NCBI GenBank assembly: GCA_013177895.1
Contig: JABLXV010000042.1
Coordinates: 1-32,566 of the forward strand
Direction: 5' to 3'
Length of the DNA stretch: 32,566 nucleotides
Source: Brevinematales bacterium
GTDB lineage: Bacteria; Spirochaetota; Brevinematia; Brevinematales; GWF1-51-8
The first letter of the stretch is position 1, and each line of letters opens with the position of its first letter. A program made the position numbers and the translations under genes. Below the pieces are notes generated by a model. It did no database searches and was not told the DNA's origin. It was given only the letters and a program-made list of their open reading frames with translations. This document shows positions 711-30,340 of this stretch, in pieces.

Positions 711-1130
711 TTATTTGACAATATAGTAGGCTGTTTTACCGCCAAACCCGTCATTTTCATACCCCTGGGGTCTCGGTTTCAGCGTGTTTTCATTCACAAA
801 GGTTTGCATATTATCAACCCACATTCCGTTAATAATGACTTTCATTTGATTCTTTGAATCCGCGAAAAGTTCGATAACTCCTGTAAAAGAACCGTCTTCC
901 TGTTTTTCCAGATTGTATTTCGGATTACTATTATCCCATTGAATATAATCGCAGGAAATATAGACCGTATCAGGAACAGGCTGGTCTTTCCCTGGCATAA
1001 AATAAAACATCACCTTCGGTAATGAGAGCGCGGCTTCGTACCTTTTTAGCGTATGCATCAGTACCTTTCCGCCGACCGGAACCGTACTGAATATGAAAAC
1101 AATGAAAAGTATTCCGTATATTTTTCTCAT
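711..1130 (-). CDS. Exported glycogen-binding (early-set/CBM48-like) protein, paralogue 1, not lipidated
   Basis: A 139-residue protein with a hydrophobic N-terminal segment (about residues 5-20) followed by one early-set beta-sandwich of the AMPK-beta/CBM48 type (about 39-139). Visible landmarks are the KVMFYFMPG first strand, DGSFTGVIEL, a MKVIINGMW strand and the C-terminal GFGGKTAYYIVK shared with two paralogues. Unlike its four neighbours it has no lipobox cysteine, so it is probably secreted or tethered by an uncleaved signal. The family's NxW glucan contact is present only loosely (IQWDNS), making this the most divergent copy. Its ATG directly abuts the TAA of paralogue 2 (GGGGGAG, TAA, ATG), so translation is coupled. 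It is last in the operon. Ligand binding is inferred from fold only. Confidence 0.72.
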   Translation of the reverse strand: MRKIYGILFIVFIFSTVPVGGKVLMHTLKRYEAALSLPKVMFYFMPGKDQPVPDTVYISCDYIQWDNSNPKYNLEKQEDGSFTGVIELFADSKNQMKVIINGMWVDNMQTFVNENTLKPRPQGYENDGFGGKTAYYIVK

Positions 1131-1559
1131 TTACTCCCCCACTTCGAGCGCCGCATAGACTGTATCCCCGTTCGTAATATACCGCGTAGGCTGGGGCATG
1201 ATTTTTCCCGCGACCTGCGCCATATCCTTCACCGGTACGCCGTTCAGGACATAAGTGTACTGATACGTCCCGGGCACGAGTTTGAGGGTGAGACGGTAGG
1301 AACCGTCGTCGGGATGAGCGAAAATATACCCTTCCGCCGACAACGCCCATTTATTCATATCCCCCGCGAACGCCACGCTATCGGGAGGAGTTTCCGCCCA
1401 TGCGGGGTTATATACGAATTCGATATTCCCGCAGGAATAACTCACCTGTGTGAACTCGGCGATACCGTTACCCAACGGCACTGGGTTGTCTTTAACAGGC
1501 TTTTCGCCGCAGCCGCTTAATAATAGAAAAAAAACAAGCCAAACTTTCGATATTTTCAT
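1131..1559 (-). CDS. Glycogen-binding-domain lipoprotein, paralogue 2
   Basis: A 142-residue predicted lipoprotein. The signal peptide ends in the lipobox LLSGC (acylated Cys17), followed by one AMPK-beta/CBM48-like early-set domain (about 43-142). Recognisable pieces are NIEFVYNP, SVAFAGDMNKW (equivalent to the GxFNxW motif of glycogen-binding domains), DDGSYRLTLKL and GTYQYTYVLNG. There is no catalytic domain. An AAAGGA ribosome site lies 7-8 nt before the ATG. A 47-nt gap separates it from the upstream paralogue, and it overlaps no gene. It probably sits on the periplasmic face of the inner membrane or on the outer membrane; lipid sorting rules for this lineage are unknown. Binding of alpha-glucan is inferred from the family, not shown by the sequence. 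Confidence 0.8.
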   Translation of the reverse strand: MKISKVWLVFFLLLSGCGEKPVKDNPVPLGNGIAEFTQVSYSCGNIEFVYNPAWAETPPDSVAFAGDMNKWALSAEGYIFAHPDDGSYRLTLKLVPGTYQYTYVLNGVPVKDMAQVAGKIMPQPTRYITNGDTVYAALEVGE

Positions 1560-1606
1560 AAATAGGTCCTTTGTTAAAATTCTTCAATCCATAAAACAGC
1601 ATCAGA

Positions 1607-2035
1607 CTATTTCAATACAATCACAACACCGGGGCCGCCGAAACAATCTTTATAGAACGAATCAGGCAGCGGGGCAATTTTATTCGTAATCGTTTCCATT
1701 CCGCCGGTAATAGTTCCCGCATCATATTTTAGCCAGTTTCCGTTGATCATATACTGATAGACGTATTTTCCCGCCGGTAATTCCAATTCAATTTTATAAT
1801 TACCGTTTTCCATTCGATAAAATTCATAATCGGGTAAACCTTCATTCCATTGGTTAAACGTCCCGGCAATATATACCGAGTCGACTTTCTCCCCGGGGTC
1901 GGGAATATATACAAACGTAATCTTCCCCGCCTTCAACGTGCCGTCGGGGTTATACTGGTTAAACGACTTAGGGTTATCCTTAATAGTCTTCGCTATCGAC
2001 GCGCACCCTGTGATAAACAACACTATAAATATCAA
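1607..2035 (-). CDS. Glycogen-binding-domain lipoprotein, paralogue 3 (start codon ambiguous)
   Basis: A lipoprotein of about 142 residues with lipobox FITGC and one AMPK-beta/CBM48-like domain (SVYIAGTFNQW, ENGNYKIELELPAGKYVYQY, MINGNW). It is the closest paralogue of the next gene upstream; the region from the lipobox through KITFVYIP is nearly identical. Coordinates here use the TTG at 2033-2035, but that gives a signal peptide without positive charges and no ribosome site. Seven codons upstream in frame, an ACG (2054-2056) sits 7 nt after a good GAGGG site (2064-2068) and would restore a classical n-region (RYPKYK). Either ACG is used as a rare start or an ancestral ATG has mutated. The domain body is intact, with no internal stops. 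Confidence 0.78.
   Translation of the reverse strand: MIFIVLFITGCASIAKTIKDNPKSFNQYNPDGTLKAGKITFVYIPDPGEKVDSVYIAGTFNQWNEGLPDYEFYRMENGNYKIELELPAGKYVYQYMINGNWLKYDAGTITGGMETITNKIAPLPDSFYKDCFGGPGVVIVLK
1911..2008 (-). repeat. Intragenic direct repeat, copy A (lipobox to first strand)
   Basis: 98 bp matching 2364-2461 with 9 mismatches and no gaps (offset 453 bp). It covers the codons from the lipobox cysteine to the first beta strand of paralogues 3 and 4, and weaker similarity continues towards 1880. This is direct evidence of a recent tandem duplication. Confidence 0.85.
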
Positions 2036-2089
2036 TTTATATTTCGGATATCGCGTGGTTGTACCCTCGTTTTACCTTATTAGCTAGTT

Positions 2090-2527
2090 TTATTCTACAT
2101 AAATAATTACTTTTATATCATCCCAATCATGGTAGAATTCTTGGGGTTCCGGTATAAAATGTTCTTTATAATCTTCTTCAGATCCATAATAATGTATCCA
2201 ATCATTATTAATAATATACATATACCTATACTTTCCGGGCGCAAGATCAATTTTTAGAATAAAATTCCCGTCCTCCGTTCGCTCGAATGCCTGCGTACTC
2301 CAATTATTAAAATCACCCCCGACGGAAACCGACTCGACTTTCTCTGTGGGTGATGGAATATACACAAACGTAATCTTCCCCGCCTTCAACGTGCCGTCCG
2401 GGTTATAGCTATTGAACGATTTCGGGTTATCCTTGATAGTCTTCGCTATCGACGCGCACCCGGGCAGTATAACAATAAAAAAGTATAATGACAATGATAT
2501 GACTTTATTTATCAAACTAGGTTTCAT
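2090..2527 (-). CDS. Glycogen-binding-domain lipoprotein, paralogue 4
   Basis: A 145-residue lipoprotein with a signal peptide ending in ILPGC, a short linker (ASIAKTIKDNPKSF), then one AMPK-beta/CBM48-like domain. SVSVGGDFNNWST closely matches the GSFNNWS sequence of eukaryotic AMPK-beta glycogen-binding domains, followed by EDGNFILKIDLAPGKYRYMY and IINNDW. The C-terminal tail (FIPEPQEFYHDW) differs from the GFGG type of paralogues 1, 3 and 5. The start is supported by a strong AGGAGGGG ribosome site. It follows the terminator at 2550-2576, so its expression probably depends on read-through from paralogue 5 or on an undetected promoter. It is the second gene of the cluster in transcription order. 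Confidence 0.82.
   Translation of the reverse strand: MKPSLINKVISLSLYFFIVILPGCASIAKTIKDNPKSFNSYNPDGTLKAGKITFVYIPSPTEKVESVSVGGDFNNWSTQAFERTEDGNFILKIDLAPGKYRYMYIINNDWIHYYGSEEDYKEHFIPEPQEFYHDWDDIKVIIYVE
2364..2461 (-). repeat. Intragenic direct repeat, copy B
   Basis: Partner of 1911-2008, lying in paralogue 4. The 98-bp alignment is ungapped with 9 differences, several at third codon positions, as expected after duplication of a coding segment under selection. Confidence 0.85.
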
Positions 2528-2549
2528 GCCCCCTCCTCTGATAACAAAG

Positions 2550-2576
2550 AAAGCAGGGGCCGGAAGCCCCTGCTTT
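2550..2576 (-). terminator. Strong intrinsic terminator between paralogues 5 and 4
   Basis: AAGCAGGGGC (2551-2560) pairs perfectly with GCCCCTGCTT (2566-2575) around the 5-nt loop CGGAA; an A-T pair extends the stem to 11 bp. On the minus strand a T-rich stretch (TTTCTTTG) follows. It lies 17 nt after the stop codon of paralogue 5 and 23 nt before the start of paralogue 4, so it would leave paralogue 5 mostly monocistronic and the other four genes at a lower level. Confidence 0.8.
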
Positions 2577-2592
2577 TAGATGATAAATTAAA

Positions 2593-3045
2593 TTATTCGA
2601 TTTCGAGAACCGCGTTCTTTCCGCCGTAACCGTCGTCAATGAAACGGGTAGGTTTCGGGGTGATAGCGTTCTCTTCGCACATCGCTTCCATACTCTGAGG
2701 CCACTGTCCATCGGGAACGAACTTATAGGGATAGCTGCCGGGATCCATTTCGAGAGTGAGGGTGAACGTACCGTCATCCTTCGCTTCGAACTCATAACTC
2801 GGGTCTCCAGGATTCCAACCGTTCAACTCACCCGCCCAGTTCAGTTTCTGGGGAGGTTCGGTATCAGGGCCGGGCTTAAATGTGAAAACAATTTCACCAG
2901 CCTTTAACGCCGCGCCTTCAGTTGCAGCCGCGCCGCCGGCATCTTTTCCACCCTTTTTACCGCCCTTTCCGGCAGCCTGACACGAAGTCAGAACCATACC
3001 TGCGGACAGCACCATAACAGCGGCTATCCATAAATACTTCTTCAT
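2593..3045 (-). CDS. Glycogen-binding-domain lipoprotein, paralogue 5 (promoter-proximal)
   Basis: A 150-residue lipoprotein with lipobox VLTSC, then a flexible Gly/Lys/Ala linker (about residues 23-45) and one early-set glycogen-binding domain. Matches include EIVFTFKPG, WAGELNGWNPGDPSYEF, DDGTFTLTLEMDPGSYPYKF and PDGQW, very close to the AMPK-beta pattern in which the DGQW tryptophan contacts glucan. It ends in GYGGKNAVLEIE. The ATG is preceded by GGAGG (6-nt spacing). It is the first gene of the cluster, with candidate promoters at 3071-3111 and an immediate terminator downstream, so it is probably the most abundant member. No catalytic domain is present. A stand-alone extracytoplasmic glycogen-binding lipoprotein is unusual; role in glucan capture is inferred. 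Confidence 0.85.
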   Translation of the reverse strand: MKKYLWIAAVMVLSAGMVLTSCQAAGKGGKKGGKDAGGAAATEGAALKAGEIVFTFKPGPDTEPPQKLNWAGELNGWNPGDPSYEFEAKDDGTFTLTLEMDPGSYPYKFVPDGQWPQSMEAMCEENAITPKPTRFIDDGYGGKNAVLEIE

Positions 3046-3187: not shown

Positions 3188-6100
3188 TTAATCTTCGTGT
3201 ATCTTCATCGGCAGACGCTTCCGTATCGCGGAGTAGGCTGTCGGCACCACAATCAACGTGAATATCGTGGATATCGTCAGACCGCCGAGGATCGATAACG
3301 CAAGCGGCGCGTACAATTCGCCGCCCTGCCCGAGCCCGATCGCCATCGGTATCAGCCCGAGCACGGTCGTCAGCGTCGTCATCATCACAGGCCGCAACCG
3401 CCGTTCTCCCGCCATACGCGCGGCTTCGTCTATCGATATACCCTTCGCGTTCAGCTGGTTCACGTAATCGATCAGCACGATCCCGTTATTGATAACGATA
3501 CCTACCATCACCACTATACCCGCGGCGGAGGTAATATTGAGGGTCGACCCGCTGAGGAACAGGAATAACAGCGAACCCAGCGCCCCGAACGGTACGGCGA
3601 ACATGATAACGAACGGCGCGATCAGCGATTCGAACTGCGAGGCCATAATCGCGTATACCAGGATGATCGCGAGCAGGAACGCAAGCCCGAGCTGGACAAA
3701 CGAATCCTGCATATCCTTGAATGATCCGCCGTAGGTGATCGAGAACCCGGCGGGCAGGTAGACTTTATCCGCGATCGCCTTCTGTATCTCGGCGACCACC
3801 TGATCCACGGGACGCCCGTAAACGTCCGCCTTGATGATTACGTAACGGATCGCGTCCTTTCGTTTGATTAACGTAGGGCCGAATGTTTTCTCAAAATCCA
3901 CCAGCGAGAGCAGAGGTACCAGTTTCCCGGTCGGGGACGGCACACTCAGGCTCATCACGTCGTCAAGCGAGAGGCGATCCTCGGGACGGAGCCTCACGAC
4001 AATATCGATATCGGTTCCTTCTTTGGATTTAATCGTGGTGGCGACCTTTCCGGCGAAACCCGTCTTGATCGCGGCGGATATCGACATAGCGTTAAGGCCC
4101 ACCTTAGACGCGAGGTCGCGGTCGATGGTAATCTGAAATTCCGGGAGACCGTTTTCTTTATCTATCATCGGCTCGCGAACTCCGGGGATTTTCGAGATAA
4201 TAGCCAGAATCTGTCCCGCGAGCTTATCGGACATATCCATATCGTCGCCTTTCAGTTCTATCTGCACGGGGCTGCCGGATGACATGAAGCCGGACGACCC
4301 CTGAATACTGACATTTATTTTCGCGGGATAATTTTTCAGCTTCTGGCGGACCTTTTCGATGATATCTAAGATATTTACAGTTCGCTCGCCTACCGGCAGA
4401 AGATTGATGCGCATACTTGCTTTGTAATCCGACGCGCCTCTCAGCATACTGAAGATACCGCCGCCCTTGATTTGGGTCATTATTCTATCGAGGTCTTTCC
4501 CGATGACTTCCTGTATATCCTTCTCCATCTGCTTGGTTACCATATCCGTATATTCGGAACGGGTGCCCACCGGGAATGTCACCGATACGCTGAAACGTCC
4601 CTCGTCGACCTGCGGAAACCCTTCCTTACCGATCAGTATTCCGAATACCCCGAGCAGAACCAGTACTCCGAAGAAAGTCGGTATCAGCACCAGCTTCTTA
4701 TGCTTCAACGCTAGGGCGAGAAAACGCCCGTAGATATGGTCGACCTTATCCAGGAATTTTCCCGTACCGCCGACGACAGGTTTGATCACCTTGATCCGCG
4801 ACGTCAGCATCGGGATGACTGTAACAGAGATGACCAGCGACGATAATAAGGATATCGTTACCGTCAGGGAAAGGTCGCGGAATATCTGCGCTACAAGCCC
4901 CTCGACGAACACGATCGGTAAGAACACGGCGACAGTCGTAAAGGTCGATGCGGATATCGCGAGGAAAACTTCCTTCGCTCCGACAATACCTCCCTCATAT
5001 CGCCCCATCCCCTTCCGCCGGTGGTGATAGATATTCTCCAGCACCACGATCGAACTGTCCACCATCATACCCACCCCCAGCATCAAGCCGGAAAGCGAGA
5101 TAATATTGAGGTTTACCTTGAACGCCAGCATCAGGATGAATGTGGCGATAATCGAAAGCGGGATAGATACCCCGATTATGAGACTGGAGCGGAAATCCCA
5201 CAGATAGAAAAACAGTACGAGCAACGCGAGGATACCGCCCTGGATACCCGCGGACCATACGCCGCCGATCGAAGTACGGATGTCTACCGATGTATCCATC
5301 ATTTTTGTCAGTTTGATATCCGCCGGGAGGGTATTATTGAGATTAGCGACAGCCGCGTTCACATCGTCCGCGACCTGCACCGTATTCATCCCGGCTTCTT
5401 TATAGATAAACAATGTCAGCGCGGGCTTACCGTTTAACCGGACGATGGCGGTATCGGGATTGTAACTCCATTTTATATCCGCGACATCCCTCAGCTTGAT
5501 CGGTATCCCGTTCTTCGATGTAACGATAACATTACCTATATCGTCGAGGCTCTTAAACTCGCCGGTGGTACGCAGGACATATTTGTAAACGCCCTCGTAT
5601 GCATATCCCCCCGCGACGTTCTGGTTCTCAAGGTATAATATGCTAGCGATAGAATCGATATTCAGTCCGAACGCCATCAGTCGGTTTTTATAGACGTCGA
5701 CATGTACTTCTTTTTTCTGCCCTCCCGACATATCGACACTCGCCACACCCGGAACCTGCTCGATCTTCTTGCGTATCTGAGTATCGCAGAGGTCGTAGAG
5801 ATACCCGAGGTCGTCCGAACCGGATAGACTGAATATCATAACCGGTATCATCGACGTCGAGAATTTGAATATGATGGGCTTTCCGGCTCCATCGGGGAGC
5901 GCATTGTTGATCAGGTCGAGTTTCTCGCGGATGTCCGCGCTGGATGATTCCAGATTCGCCCCCCAGTTGAAATTCACCTGCACCACGGAATTCCCTTCCA
6001 TCGATGTGGATTCGATATAATTTATATCGTTGACGCCCCCGACCGCGTTCTCTATCAGACGGGTGACCGATTTCTCGACTTCCTTCGGCCCGGCGCCGGT

Positions 6101-6253
6101 ATAGGTCGTCACCACGGCAAGTGTGGGTATTTCGATATCAGGGAAAAAATCTATGGAAAGTTTTGAGAGGCTCACGATACCCAGAATAATGACGGCCACA
6201 ATAGCCATCGATACGGTTACCGGCTTCTTGACGGAAACATCTATTATCGACAT
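3188..6253 (-). CDS. RND-family efflux transporter, inner-membrane pump (AcrB/HAE1 type)
   Basis: A 1021-residue resistance-nodulation-division transporter, the proton-driven inner-membrane component of a tripartite exporter. The N-terminal PVTVSMAIVAVIILGIVS is the usual first transmembrane helix, followed by DFFPDIEIPTLAVVTTYTGA. The motif GMMVDSSIVVLENI carries the transmembrane-helix-4 aspartate needed for proton coupling, and VGIVINNGIVLIDYVN is the equivalent C-half motif. The internal duplication (two sets of helices and porter domains) is complete and the length is normal. Twelve membrane helices are expected. It is the last gene of the TetR-controlled operon, 18 nt after the adaptor gene, with a GGAG-type ribosome site. 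The substrate cannot be read from sequence; the single helix-4 aspartate (DSS rather than DD) resembles lipid or heavy-molecule exporters as much as drug pumps. Confidence 0.95.
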   Translation of the reverse strand: MSIIDVSVKKPVTVSMAIVAVIILGIVSLSKLSIDFFPDIEIPTLAVVTTYTGAGPKEVEKSVTRLIENAVGGVNDINYIESTSMEGNSVVQVNFNWGANLESSSADIREKLDLINNALPDGAGKPIIFKFSTSMIPVMIFSLSGSDDLGYLYDLCDTQIRKKIEQVPGVASVDMSGGQKKEVHVDVYKNRLMAFGLNIDSIASILYLENQNVAGGYAYEGVYKYVLRTTGEFKSLDDIGNVIVTSKNGIPIKLRDVADIKWSYNPDTAIVRLNGKPALTLFIYKEAGMNTVQVADDVNAAVANLNNTLPADIKLTKMMDTSVDIRTSIGGVWSAGIQGGILALLVLFFYLWDFRSSLIIGVSIPLSIIATFILMLAFKVNLNIISLSGLMLGVGMMVDSSIVVLENIYHHRRKGMGRYEGGIVGAKEVFLAISASTFTTVAVFLPIVFVEGLVAQIFRDLSLTVTISLLSSLVISVTVIPMLTSRIKVIKPVVGGTGKFLDKVDHIYGRFLALALKHKKLVLIPTFFGVLVLLGVFGILIGKEGFPQVDEGRFSVSVTFPVGTRSEYTDMVTKQMEKDIQEVIGKDLDRIMTQIKGGGIFSMLRGASDYKASMRINLLPVGERTVNILDIIEKVRQKLKNYPAKINVSIQGSSGFMSSGSPVQIELKGDDMDMSDKLAGQILAIISKIPGVREPMIDKENGLPEFQITIDRDLASKVGLNAMSISAAIKTGFAGKVATTIKSKEGTDIDIVVRLRPEDRLSLDDVMSLSVPSPTGKLVPLLSLVDFEKTFGPTLIKRKDAIRYVIIKADVYGRPVDQVVAEIQKAIADKVYLPAGFSITYGGSFKDMQDSFVQLGLAFLLAIILVYAIMASQFESLIAPFVIMFAVPFGALGSLLFLFLSGSTLNITSAAGIVVMVGIVINNGIVLIDYVNQLNAKGISIDEAARMAGERRLRPVMMTTLTTVLGLIPMAIGLGQGGELYAPLALSILGGLTISTIFTLIVVPTAYSAIRKRLPMKIHED

Positions 6254-6271
6254 AGAAAACTCCTTTTAATG

Positions 6272-7249
6272 TTACTTTTCGGGCTTTACCGCTTGCGCCG
6301 GCTGATTGGTACTTTTCTGGTTCGTGGAATTCGGAGCGCCGCCGTTCTCATCGATCTTGCTGAGTTCCTCTTCATAGATAGGCTTGATAGCCGCGCCATC
6401 CTTTAAAAACTCGCGCCCGAAGACGACCAATTCGTCCCCCTCGTTCAGGCCGGACTTGATCGCGACCTGATCCATATATTCGAACAGGTACTCCACTTTC
6501 TTCAGGACGGCGGTATTGGTGATATTCACATATACGAAATATTCCTTACCCTGCTTAAAAATGGCGCTGTTCGGCAATACGAACACGTTATCAGCCGAAC
6601 GCACGAAAATCGACACGTCGGAATACATACCGGGCAGGAGTTCTTTCGATTTGTTGTCTAACGATGCGCGCACGAGCAGCGTGTGGCTGAGCGGATCGAT
6701 GGACTTATCCTTCCTGTAGATCACGCCCTCGAACTTCTTATCCGGGAACGCCGGTACCGATATGTAAACCTTCTGCCCCATCTGGACTTCGTTGATCTTC
6801 GACTCCGGCACATAGATCAGAATATCGATTTTATCGATATTTCCCACGCTCGCCACGGGAACCGCCGGGGAAACGTTCTGCCCGACGCTCACCATAATAC
6901 GGGTGACATATCCGCTTAACGGGGCTTTCACCGGGGAAAGGGCGAACTCCGCGCCGACCTGGAAACGGTCAACATACATCACCGCCTGACCCTTGTAGAC
7001 GAATTTCCCCTCGAGCTGGGTGATATTGGCGATCTTCCCGTTGACGTCGGGATAAATATTTACTTCGTCGCGGGCTTCCAACGCGCCGCTCAGGTTCAGG
7101 TACTGTTCGAGCTTCCCTTTCTGGAGCTTCTGCACTATGACGCTGACGGCATTGTCTTTTTTGCCCTCGTCCTTTTTCCCGCCGCACGCGGTCACGCTCA
7201 TCAGCGCGGACAATACGATAAATGCGACCAGTATTCTATTTCCCTTCAT
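6272..7249 (-). CDS. RND periplasmic adaptor (membrane fusion protein), lipoprotein
   Basis: Periplasmic adaptor of the tripartite efflux system, linking the RND pump to the TolC-type channel. From the start chosen here it has 325 residues. The signal peptide ends in SVTAC (acylated Cys22), giving a lipid anchor in the inner membrane, as in AcrA. Barrel-sandwich/lipoyl halves are visible as NIYPDVNGKIANI and SPVKAPLSGYVTRIMVSVGQNVSP, with only a very short or absent helical hairpin between them. A beta-barrel and membrane-proximal domain follow (LPGMYSDVSIFV, VFVLPNSAIF). An ATG five codons earlier (7264) is possible but lies inside the AAGGAG ribosome site that serves the ATG at 7249, so 7249 is preferred. 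The C-terminal tail is Asn/Gln/Thr-rich. It sits 15 nt after tolC. Confidence 0.92.
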   Translation of the reverse strand: MKGNRILVAFIVLSALMSVTACGGKKDEGKKDNAVSVIVQKLQKGKLEQYLNLSGALEARDEVNIYPDVNGKIANITQLEGKFVYKGQAVMYVDRFQVGAEFALSPVKAPLSGYVTRIMVSVGQNVSPAVPVASVGNIDKIDILIYVPESKINEVQMGQKVYISVPAFPDKKFEGVIYRKDKSIDPLSHTLLVRASLDNKSKELLPGMYSDVSIFVRSADNVFVLPNSAIFKQGKEYFVYVNITNTAVLKKVEYLFEYMDQVAIKSGLNEGDELVVFGREFLKDGAAIKPIYEEELSKIDENGGAPNSTNQKSTNQPAQAVKPEK

Positions 7250-7264
7250 ACAATTCTCCTTCAT

Positions 7265-8629
7265 TTATTTCTTTTCGATTTGTTCAAACGAATCCACCCC
7301 GGTCATTCGACGGAGCTTCAGGACTGCCGATGCATAATCAAAGATGGCCTGGAGGTAATTCGCGAGAGCCTGCGAGTACAGGATTTGCGCGTCCGAAAGG
7401 TCGAGGCTGGAAATAGTACCGGCATAGAACTTATCGTTCGCGAGCTTCAACCCGAGCTTCGCCTGCGCGACATTCGCGTTCTGCCCCGCGAGCGTAGAAT
7501 TCGCCTCGTCGATCTGCATATAGAGCGTCTTGACCTGGAGCGATAGCACATCCTCATACTGCTTCATCGCGATCTTTATCTTATCTATCGACGAGTCCAT
7601 CTCGGCCATAGACGCCTCGGTCTTCGAGCCGGGAATCCAGTCGTCGACCGGAATACTGAGCGCCAATCCGAGATTCCAGTTGGGTTTAAATACGCGGTCG
7701 GCGTCGATACTCGCGTCCGTATTCTTTTTATAGTCCACCCCGAGATTGAAGAAACCGTTCAGCGACGGGTAATATCCCGCCGACGCCAAATCCTTCGATA
7801 TCTTGAGTGTCTCCATAGTGAACTTCATCCCGATTAGGGTGATGTCGTTGGATTTCGCGAGAACGGTCGAATGAGCGGCATCGTGCCCCGGAACACCGAT
7901 ATTAGTAATATCGTAGATACTGCCCCTGAAATCGGCGGCGGTATCCTGCGGAAGTCCCAGACTCTGGAAAAATGCCATGACGGCGATTTTATACGCGTTA
8001 CGGAGCTTCAGGAGCTTGGGCTGGTTATTCTGGTACTGCACTTCCATCCTGATGAGGTCGTACTTCGACACCATACCGGCATTATAATTCGCCTTGGTAA
8101 ATTTTAAGGTATTGGATAATTGGATATTCATTTCCTCGGTCAGCCGGATATTTTCCTGCAGGAGAAAGAGATTATAAAAATCCTTTTTTACCTGATAGAT
8201 AATATCGTTCTTTTTCGAATCCAGTTTCTTCTTAGCAAGTTCGAGATTGATCTGCTGGAGCTTCAGGCCGTTCTGGAGAGTGAATCCCAGAAAGATAGGC
8301 TTGCTCACTTTCAACGAGGCCGAGTAATTATCCGCCCATACATTGAAGTTTGTCACCCCCATGACGACCGGGTTTCCCGCATTGACGGTGTCCTGATCGA
8401 GGTAGGTAAAGGTGAAGCCGAGATTGATATCGGGATAGTACAACGACGCGACCGTCTGCTGGACTTTCGCCTGCGCGGTCCTGATATCCTGCTCGTATTG
8501 ACGGATATCCTGATTCTTCGATAGGGAAATATTGACCGCGGTATCCACATCTATGGTCATCGTGTCCGCGAACGAGAGATAGGGCGCGGCAATCAACAAT
8601 AAAAACGGGATAAGAAATTTCTTTACCAT
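7265..8629 (-). CDS. TolC-family outer-membrane efflux protein
   Basis: A 454-residue outer-membrane channel of the tripartite efflux system. The signal peptide is about residues 1-21 (cleavage after SFA). Two outer-membrane-efflux-protein repeats follow, recognisable by long helices rich in Lys/Gln/Asn, the strand motif ASLYYPDINLGFTF early in repeat one, its counterpart SAGYYPSLNGFFNLGVDY near residues 280-300, and YNAGMVSKYDLIRMEV / YAGTISSLDLSDAQILYSQA, the typical helix turns before the equatorial region. Length is typical of the family. It lies between the exported helical-repeat gene (12-nt gap) and the adaptor, and is co-transcribed with both under TetR control. Confidence 0.93.
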   Translation of the reverse strand: MVKKFLIPFLLLIAAPYLSFADTMTIDVDTAVNISLSKNQDIRQYEQDIRTAQAKVQQTVASLYYPDINLGFTFTYLDQDTVNAGNPVVMGVTNFNVWADNYSASLKVSKPIFLGFTLQNGLKLQQINLELAKKKLDSKKNDIIYQVKKDFYNLFLLQENIRLTEEMNIQLSNTLKFTKANYNAGMVSKYDLIRMEVQYQNNQPKLLKLRNAYKIAVMAFFQSLGLPQDTAADFRGSIYDITNIGVPGHDAAHSTVLAKSNDITLIGMKFTMETLKISKDLASAGYYPSLNGFFNLGVDYKKNTDASIDADRVFKPNWNLGLALSIPVDDWIPGSKTEASMAEMDSSIDKIKIAMKQYEDVLSLQVKTLYMQIDEANSTLAGQNANVAQAKLGLKLANDKFYAGTISSLDLSDAQILYSQALANYLQAIFDYASAVLKLRRMTGVDSFEQIEKK

Positions 8630-12480: not shown

Positions 12481-12509
12481 TTGACATATCCCCTTTCACC
12501 CGTTATGAT
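12481..12509 (+). promoter_or_regulatory. Promoter of the cobalamin-riboswitch operon
   Basis: -35 TTGACA (12481-12486, perfect), 17-nt spacer, -10 TATGAT (12504-12509). Predicted start is near 12516, at the first stem of the riboswitch aptamer. The 114 nt before it, after hicB, contain only the short dispersed repeat at 12434-12459. Confidence 0.8.
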
Positions 12510-12510
12510 A

Positions 12511-12676
12511 TTCACGGTTACGGCGCCCTTCGGGGCTTAATAGGGAATCCGGTAAGGCCATGCCTCAATCCGGAACGCTGCCCGGCACTGTAAACGGGAT
12601 AACGCTTTTTCCATCATGCCACTGGGGATTTCCCCGGGAAGGCGGAAAAAGCCCGTAAGTCAGGAGACCTGCCGTA
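12511..12676 (+). promoter_or_regulatory. Cobalamin (adenosylcobalamin-type) riboswitch
   Basis: The aptamer core is recognisable by its conserved segments in order: GGTTACGG, a GGGAATCCGGT block, CTGCCCGGCACTGTAA, GCCACTGG (12618-12625), CCGGGAAGGCGG and the B12 box AAGTCAGGAGACCTGCC (12657-12673). All conserved junction motifs of the class are present. It lies between a near-consensus promoter and a BtuB-like receptor gene, the classical arrangement for repression of B12 import by intracellular cobalamin. Of the gap 12367-12775, this and its promoter are the main content. Confidence 0.95.
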
Positions 12677-12741
12677 GTCTTTCCGTATCTTCCCCGGGAA
12701 CAGGGACTGATGGATACTCCTCTTGGCGTACCCGTCCTCTA

Positions 12742-12766
12742 TCCCGTGGAAGAAATAACCGCGGGA
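12742..12766 (+). promoter_or_regulatory. Possible Shine-Dalgarno-sequestering hairpin
   Basis: TCCCG (12742-12746) can pair with CGGGA (12762-12766), which is part of the CGGGAG ribosome site of the receptor gene (GTG at 12776). The loop is 15 nt. I see no T-tract terminator between the aptamer and the gene, so translational control is the more likely output. This pairing is short and inferred. Confidence 0.35.
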
Positions 12767-12775
12767 GCTCGGTAA

Positions 12776-14560
12776 GTGAATCGTTTCCTATTCATACCTG
12801 TTTTGATTCTCCTTTGCGGGATTTCCCCGTTGTTCCCTTATGTCAACCTCGGGGCGACCAACTATAACCCCGCGAATCCCGATTTCCTGATACCTCCCTC
12901 CCCCGGCCTCGACTACGAGCCCCTGCCGGTCAACTCCGCCGGCAGTATCGCGCTCGTCCTGCCGAGCTCGGCGGTCAGCGTACGCACTGCGGGCGGTATC
13001 GGGCAGGTCAACACGGTATCGGTCGACGGCGGACTGTCGTCGCACACGCGGTTCGCGTTCGACGGGATGGTGCTGGAATTCCCGCATAACCAGTCGTTCG
13101 ACATGGGGCTATTCCCCCTCGAGTTCGCCGCCCGCGTGGACATCTATAAAAACAACCTCGCGCCGTTCGGGTATAACGCATCGGGGGGTATGGTGGATTT
13201 CCGGCTCCCGGAGTTCCTCGCCCCTAAGCTCACGCTCGGCCTGTCGGCGGGCAGTCTCTACGAGGCGGGGGCGAAGGCGCTCCTCGCATTGCCTTACGGG
13301 AACGGCGGGCTTCTCGTGGGCGGGTCGGTCATCCTTTCGGAAAACAAGTTTATTTATACCGATTCCCTCGGCACGGACGCGCCCGCGTATAATCTCGACT
13401 TCCAGCGTTACAGCCTGCTCGCGAAATGGACTCAGGGCGGCTGGTACGCAGGGCTGGCGCACACCTCAAAACAGGCGGGCGCGGGGATGAAATATCCCGG
13501 CGAGGGGCGGCAGGCGGACTCCCTTTCTATCGCGAATTTCGGGCTTAAAGGCGCGGACTTTGCGTTCGGGGCGGGCTACCTGCTCTGGGTCAGCCGTTTC
13601 ACCAACTCCCTCGGTATGGACGATACCCATATCAGCCACACGTTCGACGGAGACTGCGAAACCCGTATCAAGGACGGGATTTTCGGCCTCAGCCTGAAAC
13701 TCTCGTCGAAAACATTCCTGCTGGACAGCACCAAACTCGGCATGCGCTCGGGTGAGGATATGAACGCGATAGCCGGGTTTTCCCTGTCGCCCGGCGCGTT
13801 CCAGTTCGGAGGAAACCTCAACCTGATATGGAGATGGGGCACAGGTCTCGTCCCGGTGCCGGGGGTCTCCGCCGAGTGGAAAGCGTTCGACGGGTTCTCG
13901 GCGCGCGTCTCGGTGTCCCGTCATTACCGCCCCCCGACGATGAACGACCTTTACTGGCCTTACGACGGGTTTTCCTCCGGGAACACCAACCTCCGCCCCG
14001 AGGAAGGGCTGATCGCGAAGGCGGGCGCGGTGTGGGTATCCGGCGGGCTGACCTTATCCGCATCGGCGGGATTAAGCCTGTTCGACGGGCTGATCCTGTG
14101 GAAGCCGGACGGCGGCGGGGTATGGTCTCCCGTCAATTCCGGCAAGGCAACCGCGTTGGTGGGGGATATTTTCCTCCGTTACGAGGGGATGTCGGGATGG
14201 TGGCGGCTCGGCGGGAGCGCGGGCTTCAGCTACAACCGCACATTCAATTCCGACGAGGCATCGGCGTACTTCGGGAAGCGCCTGACGTTCATCCCGCTCT
14301 ATAAGTTCACGCTGACCCTGCACGCCGATTACGCGAAGGAGTTCGGCGCGGAGGTTTCCCTGCGCGGGGTGAGCGAACGTTTCACCGATGACTGGAACAG
14401 CCATTGGCTCGACCCGTATTTCCTCGTCGACCTCCGCCTGCGGTATTCGATTTTCACCCTCCAGCTGAATAATCTGCTCGACGCCTCGTACAGCGAGCAG
14501 GACGGATACCCGATGCCGGGATTCAATATGTCGATTGGGATAAATATAGAAATTATCTAA
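12776..14560 (+). CDS. btuB: TonB-dependent receptor, BtuB-like vitamin B12 transporter
   Basis: Outer-membrane receptor that imports cobalamin using TonB energy. It has 594 residues, close to BtuB (about 614). A signal peptide (residues 1-22) precedes a plug domain (about 50-145: VRTAGGIGQVNTVSVDGGLS, FDGMVLEFPHN, RVDIYKNNLAPFGYNASGGMVDF). A 22-strand-type barrel follows, ending in FTLQLNNLLDASYSEQDGYP and MPGFNMSIGINIEII, the typical last strands. B12 specificity is inferred from the riboswitch just upstream and from the size. I could not find a clear TonB box, and the final residue is not aromatic. It starts with GTG, with a GGGAG site 8 nt upstream. G+C content is higher than in the neighbouring hicAB genes. 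Confidence 0.85.
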   Translation: MNRFLFIPVLILLCGISPLFPYVNLGATNYNPANPDFLIPPSPGLDYEPLPVNSAGSIALVLPSSAVSVRTAGGIGQVNTVSVDGGLSSHTRFAFDGMVLEFPHNQSFDMGLFPLEFAARVDIYKNNLAPFGYNASGGMVDFRLPEFLAPKLTLGLSAGSLYEAGAKALLALPYGNGGLLVGGSVILSENKFIYTDSLGTDAPAYNLDFQRYSLLAKWTQGGWYAGLAHTSKQAGAGMKYPGEGRQADSLSIANFGLKGADFAFGAGYLLWVSRFTNSLGMDDTHISHTFDGDCETRIKDGIFGLSLKLSSKTFLLDSTKLGMRSGEDMNAIAGFSLSPGAFQFGGNLNLIWRWGTGLVPVPGVSAEWKAFDGFSARVSVSRHYRPPTMNDLYWPYDGFSSGNTNLRPEEGLIAKAGAVWVSGGLTLSASAGLSLFDGLILWKPDGGGVWSPVNSGKATALVGDIFLRYEGMSGWWRLGGSAGFSYNRTFNSDEASAYFGKRLTFIPLYKFTLTLHADYAKEFGAEVSLRGVSERFTDDWNSHWLDPYFLVDLRLRYSIFTLQLNNLLDASYSEQDGYPMPGFNMSIGINIEII

Positions 14561-18625: not shown

Positions 18626-21169
18626 TTACTGGAACAGTATCATACCGGTACCGGCGGGAACAGTTACGTCGCCGGTATATTTCTTCGCTTCCGCTTTGAG
18701 GGAGGATGCGCCGTCAACCATCACAGTCCATTCGCCGGCAGGCAGAGTAAAGAACGAGTCGTTCTTGATGTCGCCGTTCACGAGAACCGTGAAGCTCTTG
18801 CTATCGCCGGATACCGCTTTATCGTAGAAATATCCGACCGTGGCCTTGGTGTTCGGGGAGGATTTTTCACCCTTCTTGACCATAGCCTTGATAAATTTAA
18901 TCTTATCTATCGGATACAGACCGAACGACTTCGAGTACATTTTTCTGATCGCGATCAGACCCTTGTGATACAGGAACAGGTCGTTGTTCGCGGTCTTGAG
19001 ATCCCAGTTGAGCCAGTTACATTCGTTATCCTTCTCATAGGAATCGTGATCAACTCTCCACGGCTGAGCCTTACCGGACCAACCGACGGGATTGCCCTTA
19101 TTATCCTGCTGGAGCTTGTTGCCCCATTTATTGCCGGTCTTTTCCCACTGCGCGGAATTCGGGGGGAACACGCTTTCGCCGGAAGGCGGGAATACGACCT
19201 TCATTCTAGCGAATTCCGTACCTTCTTCTATCATAACAGGACCCTGCACTGTGTAGAGATACAACGCGGCGATCTTATTCATTTTCATCATCTTTTCGTC
19301 CAGAGTAGCCGTCTTAATATAATCGGCGGGCATGATTTCCAAAGAATCCTTAAATCCGCCGACGTTCTTTCGCAGATAATCCGCGAGAGTGTTGTTATCG
19401 TGCGAGCCGAAATAGCTCAGGGAGAACTTCGGTACGATAAACGTGCCGGGCATACCCTTGACGCCGTCTTCGAGGCTGACTGTTCCGGCGACACCCTGCG
19501 CGAGAGACTTAATCTGCTCGCGGACTTTATCGTTCCATGCCGCTATGCCGTGCTTCGCCATACCCTGAGGAGAGTATCCGCCGCCGTCAAACGGCTCGCC
19601 CTTGTGCCCGCCCATCCAAGGCTCCGCCACAAGGAAAGTCTCGGGATTGAATTTATAGACTGCTTTCTTGATCTTTTCATAGGTAGCCCAATCGATGATC
19701 GTACCGAGGTCAAAGCGGTAACCGTCGACATGGTATTCGTTGACCCAGTACGCACAGCTATCCACGACCAATTTACTGGACATCGGACGGTAGGTGTTAT
19801 AGTCATTACCGCATCCCGATTTAGCGTCATAGGTACCGAGAGACGTCATCCAGAAATAATACTTCTTATCGATCAGTTTCAGCGCGTTTTTATCGTACTG
19901 GGATACATGGTTATACACCACATCCATCACGACCGCGATACCGTTCTGGTGGAATACGTCGACCATCTTCTTAAACGCGTAGACCTGTTCGCCGGAGGCG
20001 CCTATCCATGCGTTCTCTTTGATCTTACCTTCATAGTAGAAGGCTTCGGGCGAGAAGAAGTTCGCGGTCATATAACCCCAGTGGTTTCTGCCGTAAACAT
20101 TCCATGTATTATACGCGAAGGTTTTAGACTTGGTCAGGTAAGGGGCTTCGATTTCGTTAAACTCCTGTGTCGGTAAAAGTTCGACGGCGTTCACGCCCAA
20201 ATCCTTGATATGAGCGAGACCGCCCTGTTTGCCGTCCTCGACCAGACCCTCAAAAGTACCTTTTTTATTCACATCCTTGGAGAGCATGGTCAAATCGCGG
20301 ACATGCATTTCATAAAGGATATATTGTTCCTGCTTGAACCCGGCATACTTCTTCGCGGATTTCCACGAATACTTTGAAGTATCGATGATAACCGTCAGAT
20401 GATGCTGGGGAGCCATTTCTTTCGTGGTGATCGCCTTCGAATAAGGGTCGGCGACAATGACGTTGGGGTCAAATTCTTCGGAGGCTCCGTCGGGACCGGT
20501 GACACGGTAACCGTAGTACTTACCGTAGAGTTCGCCGTTTACGGACGCTTCCCACACTCCGTCCTTGTCCATCGTCATCTCTATCTGCTTCTCGCCTTCC
20601 TGTAACGGCTTATCGACGTCGTCGGTATAAGGCTTGTCGAACATACAAACAACGATCTTTACCGCGCGGGGTGAGAAGACACGGAATGTAGTCTTACCGC
20701 CCTTGACGGTACATCCGAGTTCCTTCTCGGAATAGAACTTATTGAGGAAATCGTCGGAAAGCTGTCCTTCGCCGACGTTGGTGATCAGTTTCCCCTTTGC
20801 ATCGTCGAACGAAATAACGCCGACGAGGAAGTTCTTATTCATAGGTAAAGGCTTTGCGGTGAGAATACTGTATTTCTTTCCTTTCGCGTCGCCTTTAACC
20901 GAGGTAATTTCATAAGCGTTCTTCGTACCGTATTCGAGAACCACAAAATTGCTGACAGTATAATCGGCGGCTTTGAATTTTAATTCGGCCGATAATTCCG
21001 TTTCAGATACACGGATAACCCCGCTCAGTTTGTTGGCGCTTTTACCGCCGGAAGTTTCAGGCTGGGTTCCCGCACCTCCGCCTTCTCCGCATGCGACAGG
21101 CGCAATCAGTACGGCAAATAACAGTGCGATCCATTTCATTCCTTTCTTGGATTCTAGTCTTAACTTCAT
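18626..21169 (-). CDS. Pullulanase-type GH13 lipoprotein (alpha-1,6-glucan debranching enzyme)
   Basis: An 847-residue predicted lipoprotein: signal peptide ending APVAC (Cys27), a Gly/Ser/Thr linker, an unassigned beta-rich region (about 48-145), a CBM48-type domain (about 150-245: KTTFRVFSPRAVKIVVCMFD, DGVWEASVNGELYGKYYGYR), then a GH13 barrel. The catalytic regions are DVVYNH (416-421), GYRFDLG with nucleophile Asp487, VAEPW with acid/base Glu516, and GSHDN with Asp591. The usual type I pullulanase YNWGYDP motif is replaced by YGRNHWGYMTANFFSPE, so substrate range may differ. A C-terminal beta domain ends in PAGTGMILFQ. AGGAGG lies 6 nt before the ATG. It is monocistronic. It probably acts outside the cytoplasmic membrane on alpha-glucans, alongside the glycogen-binding lipoproteins. 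Confidence 0.88.
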   Translation of the reverse strand: MKLRLESKKGMKWIALLFAVLIAPVACGEGGGAGTQPETSGGKSANKLSGVIRVSETELSAELKFKAADYTVSNFVVLEYGTKNAYEITSVKGDAKGKKYSILTAKPLPMNKNFLVGVISFDDAKGKLITNVGEGQLSDDFLNKFYSEKELGCTVKGGKTTFRVFSPRAVKIVVCMFDKPYTDDVDKPLQEGEKQIEMTMDKDGVWEASVNGELYGKYYGYRVTGPDGASEEFDPNVIVADPYSKAITTKEMAPQHHLTVIIDTSKYSWKSAKKYAGFKQEQYILYEMHVRDLTMLSKDVNKKGTFEGLVEDGKQGGLAHIKDLGVNAVELLPTQEFNEIEAPYLTKSKTFAYNTWNVYGRNHWGYMTANFFSPEAFYYEGKIKENAWIGASGEQVYAFKKMVDVFHQNGIAVVMDVVYNHVSQYDKNALKLIDKKYYFWMTSLGTYDAKSGCGNDYNTYRPMSSKLVVDSCAYWVNEYHVDGYRFDLGTIIDWATYEKIKKAVYKFNPETFLVAEPWMGGHKGEPFDGGGYSPQGMAKHGIAAWNDKVREQIKSLAQGVAGTVSLEDGVKGMPGTFIVPKFSLSYFGSHDNNTLADYLRKNVGGFKDSLEIMPADYIKTATLDEKMMKMNKIAALYLYTVQGPVMIEEGTEFARMKVVFPPSGESVFPPNSAQWEKTGNKWGNKLQQDNKGNPVGWSGKAQPWRVDHDSYEKDNECNWLNWDLKTANNDLFLYHKGLIAIRKMYSKSFGLYPIDKIKFIKAMVKKGEKSSPNTKATVGYFYDKAVSGDSKSFTVLVNGDIKNDSFFTLPAGEWTVMVDGASSLKAEAKKYTGDVTVPAGTGMILFQ

Positions 21170-25042: not shown

Positions 25043-25762
25043 TTATTTCGGCTGAGGTGGGACGGGCGGCTTGTTGGTCGGTAACGAGACCGATATATTG
25101 GTCTTCATCTCGTTGGTCAATGATACCCCGGGAAGGTTAGTCGCGGCGGCCGGCAGGAGTTTTTCCTTCGGCTTGGGAGCCTTGGGCATCTGCGACGGGA
25201 ATCCCATCACGAAATCGATACCCACCTGAAACCAGTGGCTCATCCGGAACCCCACCTCGCTCGAGACGATAAACAACCCGTTATAACTCGCCGTAAACTC
25301 GATGCCGTAAAGGAAGCTCAGGTCGAGTATCCTGCTTCCGCCGAGAGTCCAACGGTATCCCGCGCCGAGCTGGTATCCGAACGACGGTTCCATAATATAG
25401 GCATTGCCGGTGGCGAGATGATAATACGGTATATTGAGAAGCCCGCCCTCGATGTTGGCGTTGAAAAAGTACCCGGTCAGGAAATTATTATTGAAGTAGT
25501 ATCGCCCCCCGAAACCGAGAAAGAACTTCCACGCGTCCCCGTAATAAGGGGATTCGTTCAGCGCGACATCCTTCCCGAACTGGAAAGCGAGCATCCATGT
25601 AAATTGACGGGCGAACTCGGTCTCGCTGAAAAGGAGCACCTTCGGGCTGATACTGATACCCCCGTTGAAAAAGGTCGAGTTCGCGGCGTTCAGTTTCCCG
25701 AAACCCGCGAGTAGAAGCAGAAACGCTCCGGCGGTAATTATCCCATTCAGCCCTTTCATCAT
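25043..25762 (-). CDS. Putative outer-membrane beta-barrel protein with Pro/Thr-Asn tail
   Basis: A 239-residue exported protein with signal peptide 1-26. The middle is made of alternating aromatic/polar strands with Gly turns (KFFLGFGGRYYFNNNFLTGY, IEGGLLNIPYYHL, GYQLGAGYRWTLGG, EFTASYNGLFIVSSEVGF, WFQVGIDFVMGFPSQ), as in small outer-membrane barrels. The last 45 residues are Lys/Pro- and Thr-Asn-rich without strand character. It starts 6 nt after the stop of the cytoplasmic GH13 gene (AAGGA, then ATGATG), so the two are co-transcribed. A porin-like role in oligosaccharide entry would fit the operon, but no family match supports it. Confidence 0.7.
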   Translation of the reverse strand: MMKGLNGIITAGAFLLLLAGFGKLNAANSTFFNGGISISPKVLLFSETEFARQFTWMLAFQFGKDVALNESPYYGDAWKFFLGFGGRYYFNNNFLTGYFFNANIEGGLLNIPYYHLATGNAYIMEPSFGYQLGAGYRWTLGGSRILDLSFLYGIEFTASYNGLFIVSSEVGFRMSHWFQVGIDFVMGFPSQMPKAPKPKEKLLPAAATNLPGVSLTNEMKTNISVSLPTNKPPVPPQPK

Positions 25763-25768
25763 CAGTCC

Positions 25769-27070
25769 TTATAACGACGTATAGAGAATCCGTATATCCG
25801 ACGGATTGAGCATATATTCGAACTGGGAGACCGCGACATCAGTCATCGGATGCTCGAACGACAGGTCGATTATTTTCCCGCCCGGTTTCGCGCCGATCAC
25901 TCCCGCGAGGTCGCTGAAGAACAGACGCTGGCGGTTAAACGGGTCTTTATTGATAACGATCATCACTTTTTCTTTGCCGTTCTGCGAAGTTTTCAGGAGG
26001 CAGATGATATTCGCCCAGTTATCGTTATGCACGATCTCGATCCTGCATTCCTCGTTAAATATCCGGTACTTGGAACGGGTCTCGTTGATCCCGGTGATCA
26101 ACCCGCTGATGTCGTAGTTGACCTCTTCCCAATCCTTGGGGTACGTGCTGACCACATCGGTCTTGTTCTTGAAGCCGAACTCCATCCCGATAGGAACCAT
26201 CCACCCGGTCGAGAAAAACGCGGTAAATATGATGCGCTGTTTGATGAGCGCGATATTGTTCTGGTATTCGTATGCCAGACGCGGGGTATCGTGCGACTCC
26301 GGGAACGCGATCGACGGGGCGACCTCGCGGGTCTGGTTATATTGACGGAGGAGCCAGTCCTCCTGAAAATTCCAGTACTTAGAACTATTGAACAGGTAAT
26401 CGAACCCCGCCTCGCCGAGAGCGAGTGCCTGTTCCTGGGTACACCCGAGGCTTTCCGCGAAGAAGCGCACGTCCTTATTCTTCTTCTTACCCGCCTCGAT
26501 GAGGTACGACCATAATTCCGCGGGAACTTGGTACGCCGCGTCCGCCCGGAACCCGTCCACACCCTTATCGATATAAAACTCCACCAGTTCCTTCCAGTAT
26601 GCCCAGAGTTTCTTCTTATCCGGGGAATTCGCGTTATTGATCTCGGCGAGGTCGCCCCATTCGTTATAGTTCGGGCCGTCCCATGCGCCGGGGCTTTTCA
26701 CTTCGCCCTTCTCGTTCATTTCATACCAGTCGGGATGGAGCTTCACGAACGGGTGATCCTTCGCGGTATGATTGATGACCAGGTCCATCATCACCTTTAT
26801 CCCGCGTTTCTTGGCCTCGCCCATAGCGTTCTGGAGCTGTACCATCGGCGGTATCGCCGAGCTTTTATCCGCGAAAATAGGGTTGAAATCGTAGTAATCC
26901 TTGGGGGCGTAGAGACTCCCGGAGAACCCCGGATAATGGAACGGGTTGATATAGAGCCAGTCGAATCCCATAGCGGCTATCCGGTCGTAATGCTGAACCC
27001 AGTCATGCATATATCCCACCAGACGGGGGAAAAGGTTATAGATTTTCGGGCCGGTGTTGAATTGCGCCAT
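25769..27070 (-). CDS. Cytoplasmic GH13 alpha-glucan-active enzyme (maltosyltransferase/amylase-like)
   Basis: A 433-residue GH13 family enzyme without a signal peptide, so cytoplasmic. The sequence KIYNLFPRLVGYMHDWV with AAMGFDWLYINPFHYPGFSG is reminiscent of the maltosyltransferase/GlgE-like GH13 groups. Catalytic regions are DLVINH (96-101), VDGFRADAAY with nucleophile Asp177, FFAESLG with acid/base Glu206, and FPESHDTPR with Asp261. All three acidic residues are present. The ATG at 27070 has GAGGAGG 7 nt upstream; the longer frame from 27115 has none. It is first in a two-gene operon with the outer-membrane protein. Possible roles are maltodextrin remodelling or glycogen synthesis; the exact reaction is not determinable here. 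Confidence 0.87.
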   Translation of the reverse strand: MAQFNTGPKIYNLFPRLVGYMHDWVQHYDRIAAMGFDWLYINPFHYPGFSGSLYAPKDYYDFNPIFADKSSAIPPMVQLQNAMGEAKKRGIKVMMDLVINHTAKDHPFVKLHPDWYEMNEKGEVKSPGAWDGPNYNEWGDLAEINNANSPDKKKLWAYWKELVEFYIDKGVDGFRADAAYQVPAELWSYLIEAGKKKNKDVRFFAESLGCTQEQALALGEAGFDYLFNSSKYWNFQEDWLLRQYNQTREVAPSIAFPESHDTPRLAYEYQNNIALIKQRIIFTAFFSTGWMVPIGMEFGFKNKTDVVSTYPKDWEEVNYDISGLITGINETRSKYRIFNEECRIEIVHNDNWANIICLLKTSQNGKEKVMIVINKDPFNRQRLFFSDLAGVIGAKPGGKIIDLSFEHPMTDVAVSQFEYMLNPSDIRILYTSL

Positions 27071-27202
27071 AGAGCGCCCTCCTCGGAGTGGAAATCGTTT
27101 CATAACAGGATTCATTTTAAGGGTATCCGGCTTAAAAGTCCATAAAACGGGGTATCCGTTTTCGTTGGGATTCTGCGTCTTCCCTACACTTCAGCGCGGG
27201 GT

Positions 27203-27270: not shown

Positions 27271-27298
27271 CTTAGTTACTAAAAAAGGATAATAATTG

Positions 27299-30200: not shown

Positions 30201-30340
30201 TTAATATCAACCGGAAGGTCGATAACGTAAAATTGGTATCCTACTGGGAACCGGAAATCCGCCTCGAATTCCGATTGGTCGGTTCGAGCGAACAGTTCCC
30301 GCCATACAGCCATAAATTTGTCCCGGCGGAGTACCAGTAA
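27299..30340 (+). CDS. lptD: LPS-assembly protein LptD-like (OstA family) outer-membrane protein
   Basis: A protein of about 1013 residues that inserts lipopolysaccharide-type lipids in the outer leaflet. A signal peptide (1-28) is followed by an OstA/LptA-like beta-taco (about 40-150: IHFIGNVLIRFEGNVLKARK, FGNVEFTLGTDIYLADSLSF) and a long barrel rich in aromatic strands ending in EIRLEFRLVGSSEQFPPYSH. Residues about 510-580 form an unusual Thr-Asn-rich linker (SLTNMQTNMALTLTNLPVTP style, repeated TN pairs) inserted in the barrel region. Start choice is uncertain: ATG 27299 is preferred, but a TTG at 27296 is better spaced from the AAGGA site. Its partner LptE is not in the window. tgt follows immediately. 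Confidence 0.85.
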   Translation: MARFRFIPAAGGLFLSLLFTFSPLFGQTTPVTNQNSTNSGKPEFVEDVNIKGANVNENIIFDNFDEVFIQNYDKEDLREIHFIGNVLIRFEGNVLKARKVVITVKGDKVLEISAFGNVEFTLGTDIYLADSLSFDPEQKKGVLKQVRSFMKGSSSGAPISSSTGWYYTAEKATILSQSKVYLENVYFTTSDEKFPHYSFFAQQLWYYRSEIIFATGIMYTVGQADFFYFPFFFRWEQTSEFRTAFGWEKRIGWYLMNTFQISTAFGNFEMYLDIYERLGEYFQLNYRNIKPLGNLKTLSLFLELADDIRIFKDGDRYTWLTDADFDNSYEAIRQFSWHYKLNLNYSIPDFSLSGYWEALNDPFFTTKYTQRKKAFDIKEILQYDQNTFFTYSDTLSGITALARGFSISAGKLSLSGNWNFLRIENQSITNKYLNERYSFVLDSTTFPTLGYTMPSITLISNLSFDTPMSKTIKLSNTNLTVPINTDVPEYLAKYLQIMKNKAALKAISSSNSLTNMQTNMALTLTNLPVTPLKPTNALTNLKATNSMLKITNMPGVTNKPGLTNTGTNTAPVKPAPLYTITTNNLAWYKFTSSLNASFGYTTSEKVDTNGDPVSDSYSHTENGGIVFNGGFFNNLITMNNTLSFMNRKRWSSFEINQNNDQKYSGSELSYRGGLGFNQTGTVFKTSIFEFNFPLSLSHSIAYQLLRTTYGEKPLEINHSTSLGTGFNLAKNNIAFSVSGSHSITYRQTNGVDDIYLNNTILRSASANASLKIFWLSASTGLSLDLLETKSNMLELDYADFTNRLRSGFPKLTLTFTPPQPLPSISYVYDFIKQTNVSFDISSSYSLKDIKIPLFYNLESMNFSAQFHYDFLSPRQTYFTLSFSMTLWIDKYWKLTFSTRIKNTKIFRYFEDNQDIFLAGEYYVNFWDNLWDGINIFDYEGLKRSFFKIQGLNFDLVHNLDEWELHAIFNINRKVDNVKLVSYWEPEIRLEFRLVGSSEQFPPYSHKFVPAEYQ

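Follow-up and report, generated by a model that had tools for sequence, protein, structure and literature searches.

Exported AMPK-beta-type domains in a Brevinematales spirochete: a conserved, probable glucan-binding lipoprotein and its unstable tandem duplicates

Why would a spirochete carry, side by side, five genes for small exported proteins that each consist of a single AMPK-beta-type CBM? Such an array is found on a contig (C42) of a Brevinematales spirochete (genome of 3.60 Mb, 95% complete) whose nearest named relatives are the Brevinematales/Spirochaetes MAGs DeMMO6_14, GWF1_49_6 and GWF1_51_8. The stretch of DNA analyzed, hereafter the window, is this entire contig (32,566 nucleotides). 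From the contig start, the order is the 5′ end of a 16S gene, rpmB (both recognized by eye), the five copies named c1 to c5, and an operon encoding an RND permease, an adaptor and a TolC-like protein (3188..8629, minus strand), the array neighbors being conserved within the genus. Truncation of the array by the contig edge is ruled out, since rpmB and the 16S start, as read from the sequence, lie between the two. The five consecutive minus-strand ORFs (711-3045; 139-150 aa) were confirmed as real genes: c1 (711..1130), c2 (1131..1559), c3 (1607..2035), c4 (2090..2527) and c5 (2593..3045).

Export of all five proteins, as originally proposed, is predicted from their N-termini, and four of them (c2-c5) have a lipobox cysteine; signal peptides and lipoboxes were assigned by reading. 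c1 and its orthologs have a hydrophobic N-terminus without this cysteine. The start of c3 is doubtful: the region 1607-2074 offers no ATG or GTG, only a TTG, and the charged n-region of the signal peptide lies upstream of it. A TTG start that excludes the charged n-region makes the expression of c3 uncertain; to judge by its reading frame, the gene may be poorly expressed or decaying. A role in AMPK-like energy sensing was rejected, as the array proteins are exported.

The assignment to the AMPK-beta fold was borne out by structure prediction. The most canonical copy, c5, and the least canonical one, c2, were modeled with AlphaFold from only 15 related sequences. In both, the domain is predicted confidently (ten-residue block means of 89-98), and Foldseek ranks AMPK-beta/SNF1-beta glycogen-binding domains first, with target-normalized TM values of 0.84 (c5) and 0.82 (c2). 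As modeled, c2 is an AMPK-beta-type domain. Pfam profiles recognize the domain in part of the array, well above chance: c3 and c4 exceed the AMPK1_CBM cut-off (PF16561, E about 1e-8) and c5 that of the related PF22058 X25 (E 7e-7), c2 gives a weak match below the cut-off (E 0.008-0.04), and c1 has no Pfam match. c1 and c2 were assigned to the array family by alignment with the other copies. The FNxW motif first noted for the array is literal in c3 and c4; its W is invariant, and the motif reads YIQW in c1, MNKW in c2 and LNGW in c5. By profile, the nearest solved relative of c5 is the N-domain of a Thermococcus pullulanase (5OT1, E 2.6e-16), with which the c5 type has in common the segment WV.DM...P....DGYGGKNAV.

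Which copies retain a sugar-binding site? We took the sugar contacts of AMPK-beta1 to be W100, K126, W133 and N150, and mapped these positions by alignment on its sequence. In c5 they correspond to W77, K108, W115 and N144, and the set is complete in 12/12 orthologs. The c1 protein of the window has three of the four (W K W T), with a pattern that varies between genomes. Two are found in c3 (W Q W G; K to Q, N to G) and two in c4 (W M W K; K to M, N to K). As for c2 (W T P Y), the first W alone is kept, in all four genomes of the genus. The first W is thus present in every copy, and the second in all copies except c2. At these positions, the original description of five glycogen-binding proteins is supported for c5 and not for the array as a whole. 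A control alignment with the CBM48 of wtsFae1B, for which absence of starch binding is reported (PMC8040265), shows W, K and W lost and N alone retained, so that in this one example the contact residues separate a non-binder from binders. All four contacts are complete in a lipoprotein encoded on contig C20 of the same genome and in six free CBM lipoproteins of other phyla that were examined.

The c5 gene stands apart by its distribution. Searches with the array profile gave one match per genome in eight further genomes of the class (E 1e-30 to 1e-35), well apart from other CBM matches (about 1e-12); of 393 genomes sampled from the phylum, only three more passed 1e-14. The orthologs are lipoproteins of about 140-160 aa, and two further Brevinematia families (f2 and f5) have a single one in each genome. 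They adjoin the RND operon in the present genus, unrelated genes in f2, and cfpA, encoding a cytoplasmic filament protein, in all five f5 genomes (L149-L153; identified by an NCBIfam match in one and by sequence start in the others). Directly 3′ of c5 lies an intrinsic terminator with a 12-bp stem (2550..2576, minus strand). A hairpin occupies the same site in 8/8 other c5 orthologs folded, with stem sequences that differ between families, so that c5 seems to be transcribed as a unit of its own. Within the genus, c5 is 83-93% identical, with a dN/dS of 0.07-0.12, near that of the neighboring adaptor gene (0.06-0.08). Its codon adaptation lies at the 95th percentile of 175 ORFs, a narrow range that makes this weak evidence of high expression. 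c5 is the probable ancestral anchor copy of the array.

On the other hand, c1 to c4 are specific to the genus and unstable, with a copy number that varies among four sister genomes. DeMMO6_14 and GWF1_49_6 have c5, c2 and c1, GWF1_51_8 has c5, a c3-like copy, c2 and c1, and all five are found in the genome of the window. GWF1_49_6 retains a remnant of the c4 signal peptide between c5 and c2 (50% identity over 36 aa); in the same genome, an ORF labeled by eye as methyltransferase-like sits between c2 and c1 (L093:952-2552). Identity within the genus is 36-45% for the fast-evolving c1 and 61-87% for c2. The conservation of c2, together with a dN/dS of 0.15 (two measurable pairs), indicates that it is not a pseudogene. 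Its residue pattern suggests that it has probably departed from glucan binding.

The window also encodes a pullulanase-like GH13 lipoprotein (18626..21169, minus strand) with CBM48 and GH13 domains and a pullulanase beta domain (Pfam, NCBIfam), the last being a sub-threshold match. The lipoprotein pullulanase and c5 occur in an identical set of 12/18 genomes of the class, in line with the partnership first proposed, and pullulanase orthologs are absent from all six genomes without c5. The relation between the two families that lack c5 is not resolved by an rpoB tree, so that this co-occurrence amounts to no more than one or two joint losses and is only moderate evidence. Glycogen synthase and phosphorylase are uninformative in this respect, since glgA and glgP are present in all 18 genomes. 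No alpha-glucan gene adjoins c5 in any family examined. The "cytoplasmic GH13 operon" at 25043-27070, to which the array had also been tied, turned out to be a GH13 gene (25769-27115) and a separate exported protein without family assignment (25043-25762) encoded directly downstream of it; no link between this GH13 gene and the array was found. Neither SusC nor SusD is encoded beside the array. The only TonB-dependent receptor recognized in the window (12776) was considered as a glucan porin and rejected, as it sits behind a cobalamin riboswitch; this arrangement (12504-14560) corresponds to B12 uptake. Elsewhere in the window (27296-30340), a 1014-aa exported protein looks LptD/OstA-like by eye and has no Pfam or NCBIfam match.

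Free-standing, lipid-anchored domains of this kind had been called unusual, which proved too strong. The genome contains 25 AMPK1_CBM matches at E<=1, among which are six other single-domain CBM lipoproteins (on C20, C47, C57 and C14), a two-domain protein (C1), an esterase fusion and GH13 enzymes. At E<=0.01, the number of matches is 17-20 in sister species, 1-7 in the remaining genomes of the order and class, and 0-5 in most of those sampled from the phylum, which points to an expansion of the domain in this genus. On C20, a GH13 gene is followed by a free CBM lipoprotein. The 25 matches also include proteins encoded at two other loci. In one (L025:7362-8382), an ECF sigma factor gene precedes that of a short membrane protein, in an anti-sigma-like position, whose AMPK1_CBM domain lies outside the cytoplasm; three of the four sugar contacts are lost in this protein. 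In the other (L028:8932-14619), a SpoIIE-type phosphatase, whose N-terminal part has a CBM-like domain flanked by membrane segments, is followed by a multi-CBM TPR protein, and the pair could possibly act in envelope sensing.

Free CBM lipoproteins also occur in four other phyla, in operons with CBM or GH13 lipoproteins. In 13/13 loci from Neomarinimicrobiota (and bin TMED161), Cloacimonadota, Eisenbacteria and Elusimicrobiota (L103, L104, L107, L110, L113-L115, L119-L121, L126, L132 and L133), a free exported CBM protein is encoded 4-66 bp after a gene for an N-terminal CBM followed by about 550 residues. This remainder ends in F, is barrel-like by eye and matches no Pfam family beyond the CBM; the fusion, carrying its own binding module, may act as a glucan porin. 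The downstream protein was checked in three loci (L103, L107 and L133) and is in each a GH13 lipoprotein enzyme with two to four CBMs. From this gene order, the 13 loci are an apparent alpha-glucan operon in several phyla. The recurring linkage of free CBM lipoproteins to alpha-glucan enzymes supports a functional class, and not the role of the array itself. The free proteins are, like those of the array, exported and single-domain (130-178 aa), and the contacts are kept in the six examined; they differ in lying directly after the CBM-plus-barrel-like gene and in lacking the c5-type segment. Literature searches for AMPK1_CBM or isoamylase-early-set lipoproteins returned nothing on free-standing bacterial ones, and those on Brevinematales nothing useful.

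Comparison with known systems places the array more closely. With the AMPK-beta glycogen-binding domain (1Z0M/1Z0N; PF16561, CBM48), the array shares the fold and c5 shares the four contacts. In contrast to it, the array proteins are exported, mostly lipid-anchored and free-standing, have no kinase partner and carry an extra segment between the second W and N, while c1-c4 lack one to three contacts. In the Thermococcus kodakarensis pullulanase (5OT1), the N-domain is fused to the GH13 enzyme, whereas here it is a separate lipoprotein; such a fusion fits a link between c5 and the pullulanase. SusE and SusF are lipid-anchored. They have two or three modules and belong to the Bacteroidota sus locus, whereas the array has one domain per protein and the window no sus-like locus. 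Both they and the X25 modules of R. bromii Sas20/Sca5 are non-catalytic, extracellular starch-binding beta-sandwich modules (PMC9112005). The CBM48s of CE1 feruloyl esterases (wtsFae1B, 6RZN; DmCE1B) have the same fold and lack the starch-site residues, as c2 partly does; unlike the free-standing c2, they are fused to the esterase and reported not to bind starch (PMC8040265). Overall, the system belongs with the non-catalytic starch-binding lipoproteins as a variant and is not a new kind.

It is quite probable that c5 binds alpha-glucan. Counting against this role, isolated CBM48 domains can fail to bind every glycan tested. The fuller reading, which we favor by a narrower measure of belief, is that c5 holds alpha-glucan near amylolytic lipoproteins of the envelope, in the manner of SusE/SusF, while its duplicates diverge by birth and death. 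On this view, c5 is an old lipoprotein of the Brevinematia, and its one AMPK-beta/CBM48-type domain would bind an extracytoplasmic alpha-glucan, be it glycogen, starch or maltodextrin. The lipoprotein would be located at the surface and keep the glucan close to the envelope, within reach of amylolytic lipoproteins and chiefly of the pullulanase at 18626-21169, as a free-standing equivalent of the CBM that Thermococcus fuses to its pullulanase. In this genus, c5 would have been duplicated in place, its copies being under birth and death: c2, its sugar site lost, would have been fixed for a different role, c3 and c4 would have decayed in part or changed their specificity, and c1 would be evolving fast. 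Envelope alpha-glucan capture, as first proposed for the whole array, is thus retained for c5 (contacts, pullulanase co-occurrence, 5OT1), and not for the array as a whole or for its link to the cytoplasmic GH13 enzyme.

A more tentative reading is that the array repurposes the glycogen-binding fold, with c5 still binding glucan and c2, perhaps together with c3, c4 and c1, recognizing other ligands or protein partners. The anti-sigma-like protein and the SpoIIE-type phosphatase, with their related domains, would fit such a use of the fold as a general surface-recognition scaffold. It is rather doubtful that all five proteins form one envelope capture system with differing preferences for chain length or branching, as the original prediction held. 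Every copy has or aligns to the fold, only c2 departs from the pair of tryptophans, and GH13 and CBM proteins are numerous in the genome; however, the loss of K, the second W and N from c2 in 4/4 genomes, and of K and N from c3 and c4, argues against it, and the c2 pattern approaches that of the CBM48 reported not to bind starch. It appears equally unlikely that the whole clade, c5 included, uses the E-set fold for an envelope-structural, protein-docking or other-ligand role, the adjacency of the array to the efflux genes being due to chance. CBM48 domains without detectable glycan binding exist, c5 has no glucan genes nearby in any family and always adjoins cfpA in f5, and a housekeeping role is suggested by its presence as a single copy with a terminator of its own and by how strongly it is conserved. 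Against this, all four contacts of c5 have been kept over deep divergence although c2 shows that they are free to change, its distribution matches that of the pullulanase, and no solved protein is closer to it than a pullulanase N-domain. Finally, it is highly improbable that the array serves the neighboring RND efflux operon as an accessory, and as a general role this was rejected: the adjacency is kept in all four members of the genus, yet c5 has its own terminator and its orthologs in other families are separate genes that do not lie beside RND genes.

If c5 does act as a glucan-holding lipoprotein, Brevinematia would handle external alpha-glucan by pairing a lipoprotein pullulanase with a glycogen-binding protein that is separate and lipid-anchored, an arrangement not described for spirochetes in the literature searched. 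In addition, the tandem copies would provide a natural experiment in how duplicated genes retain or lose a glucan-binding site, with c5 and c2 differing at three contact residues while both are under purifying selection.
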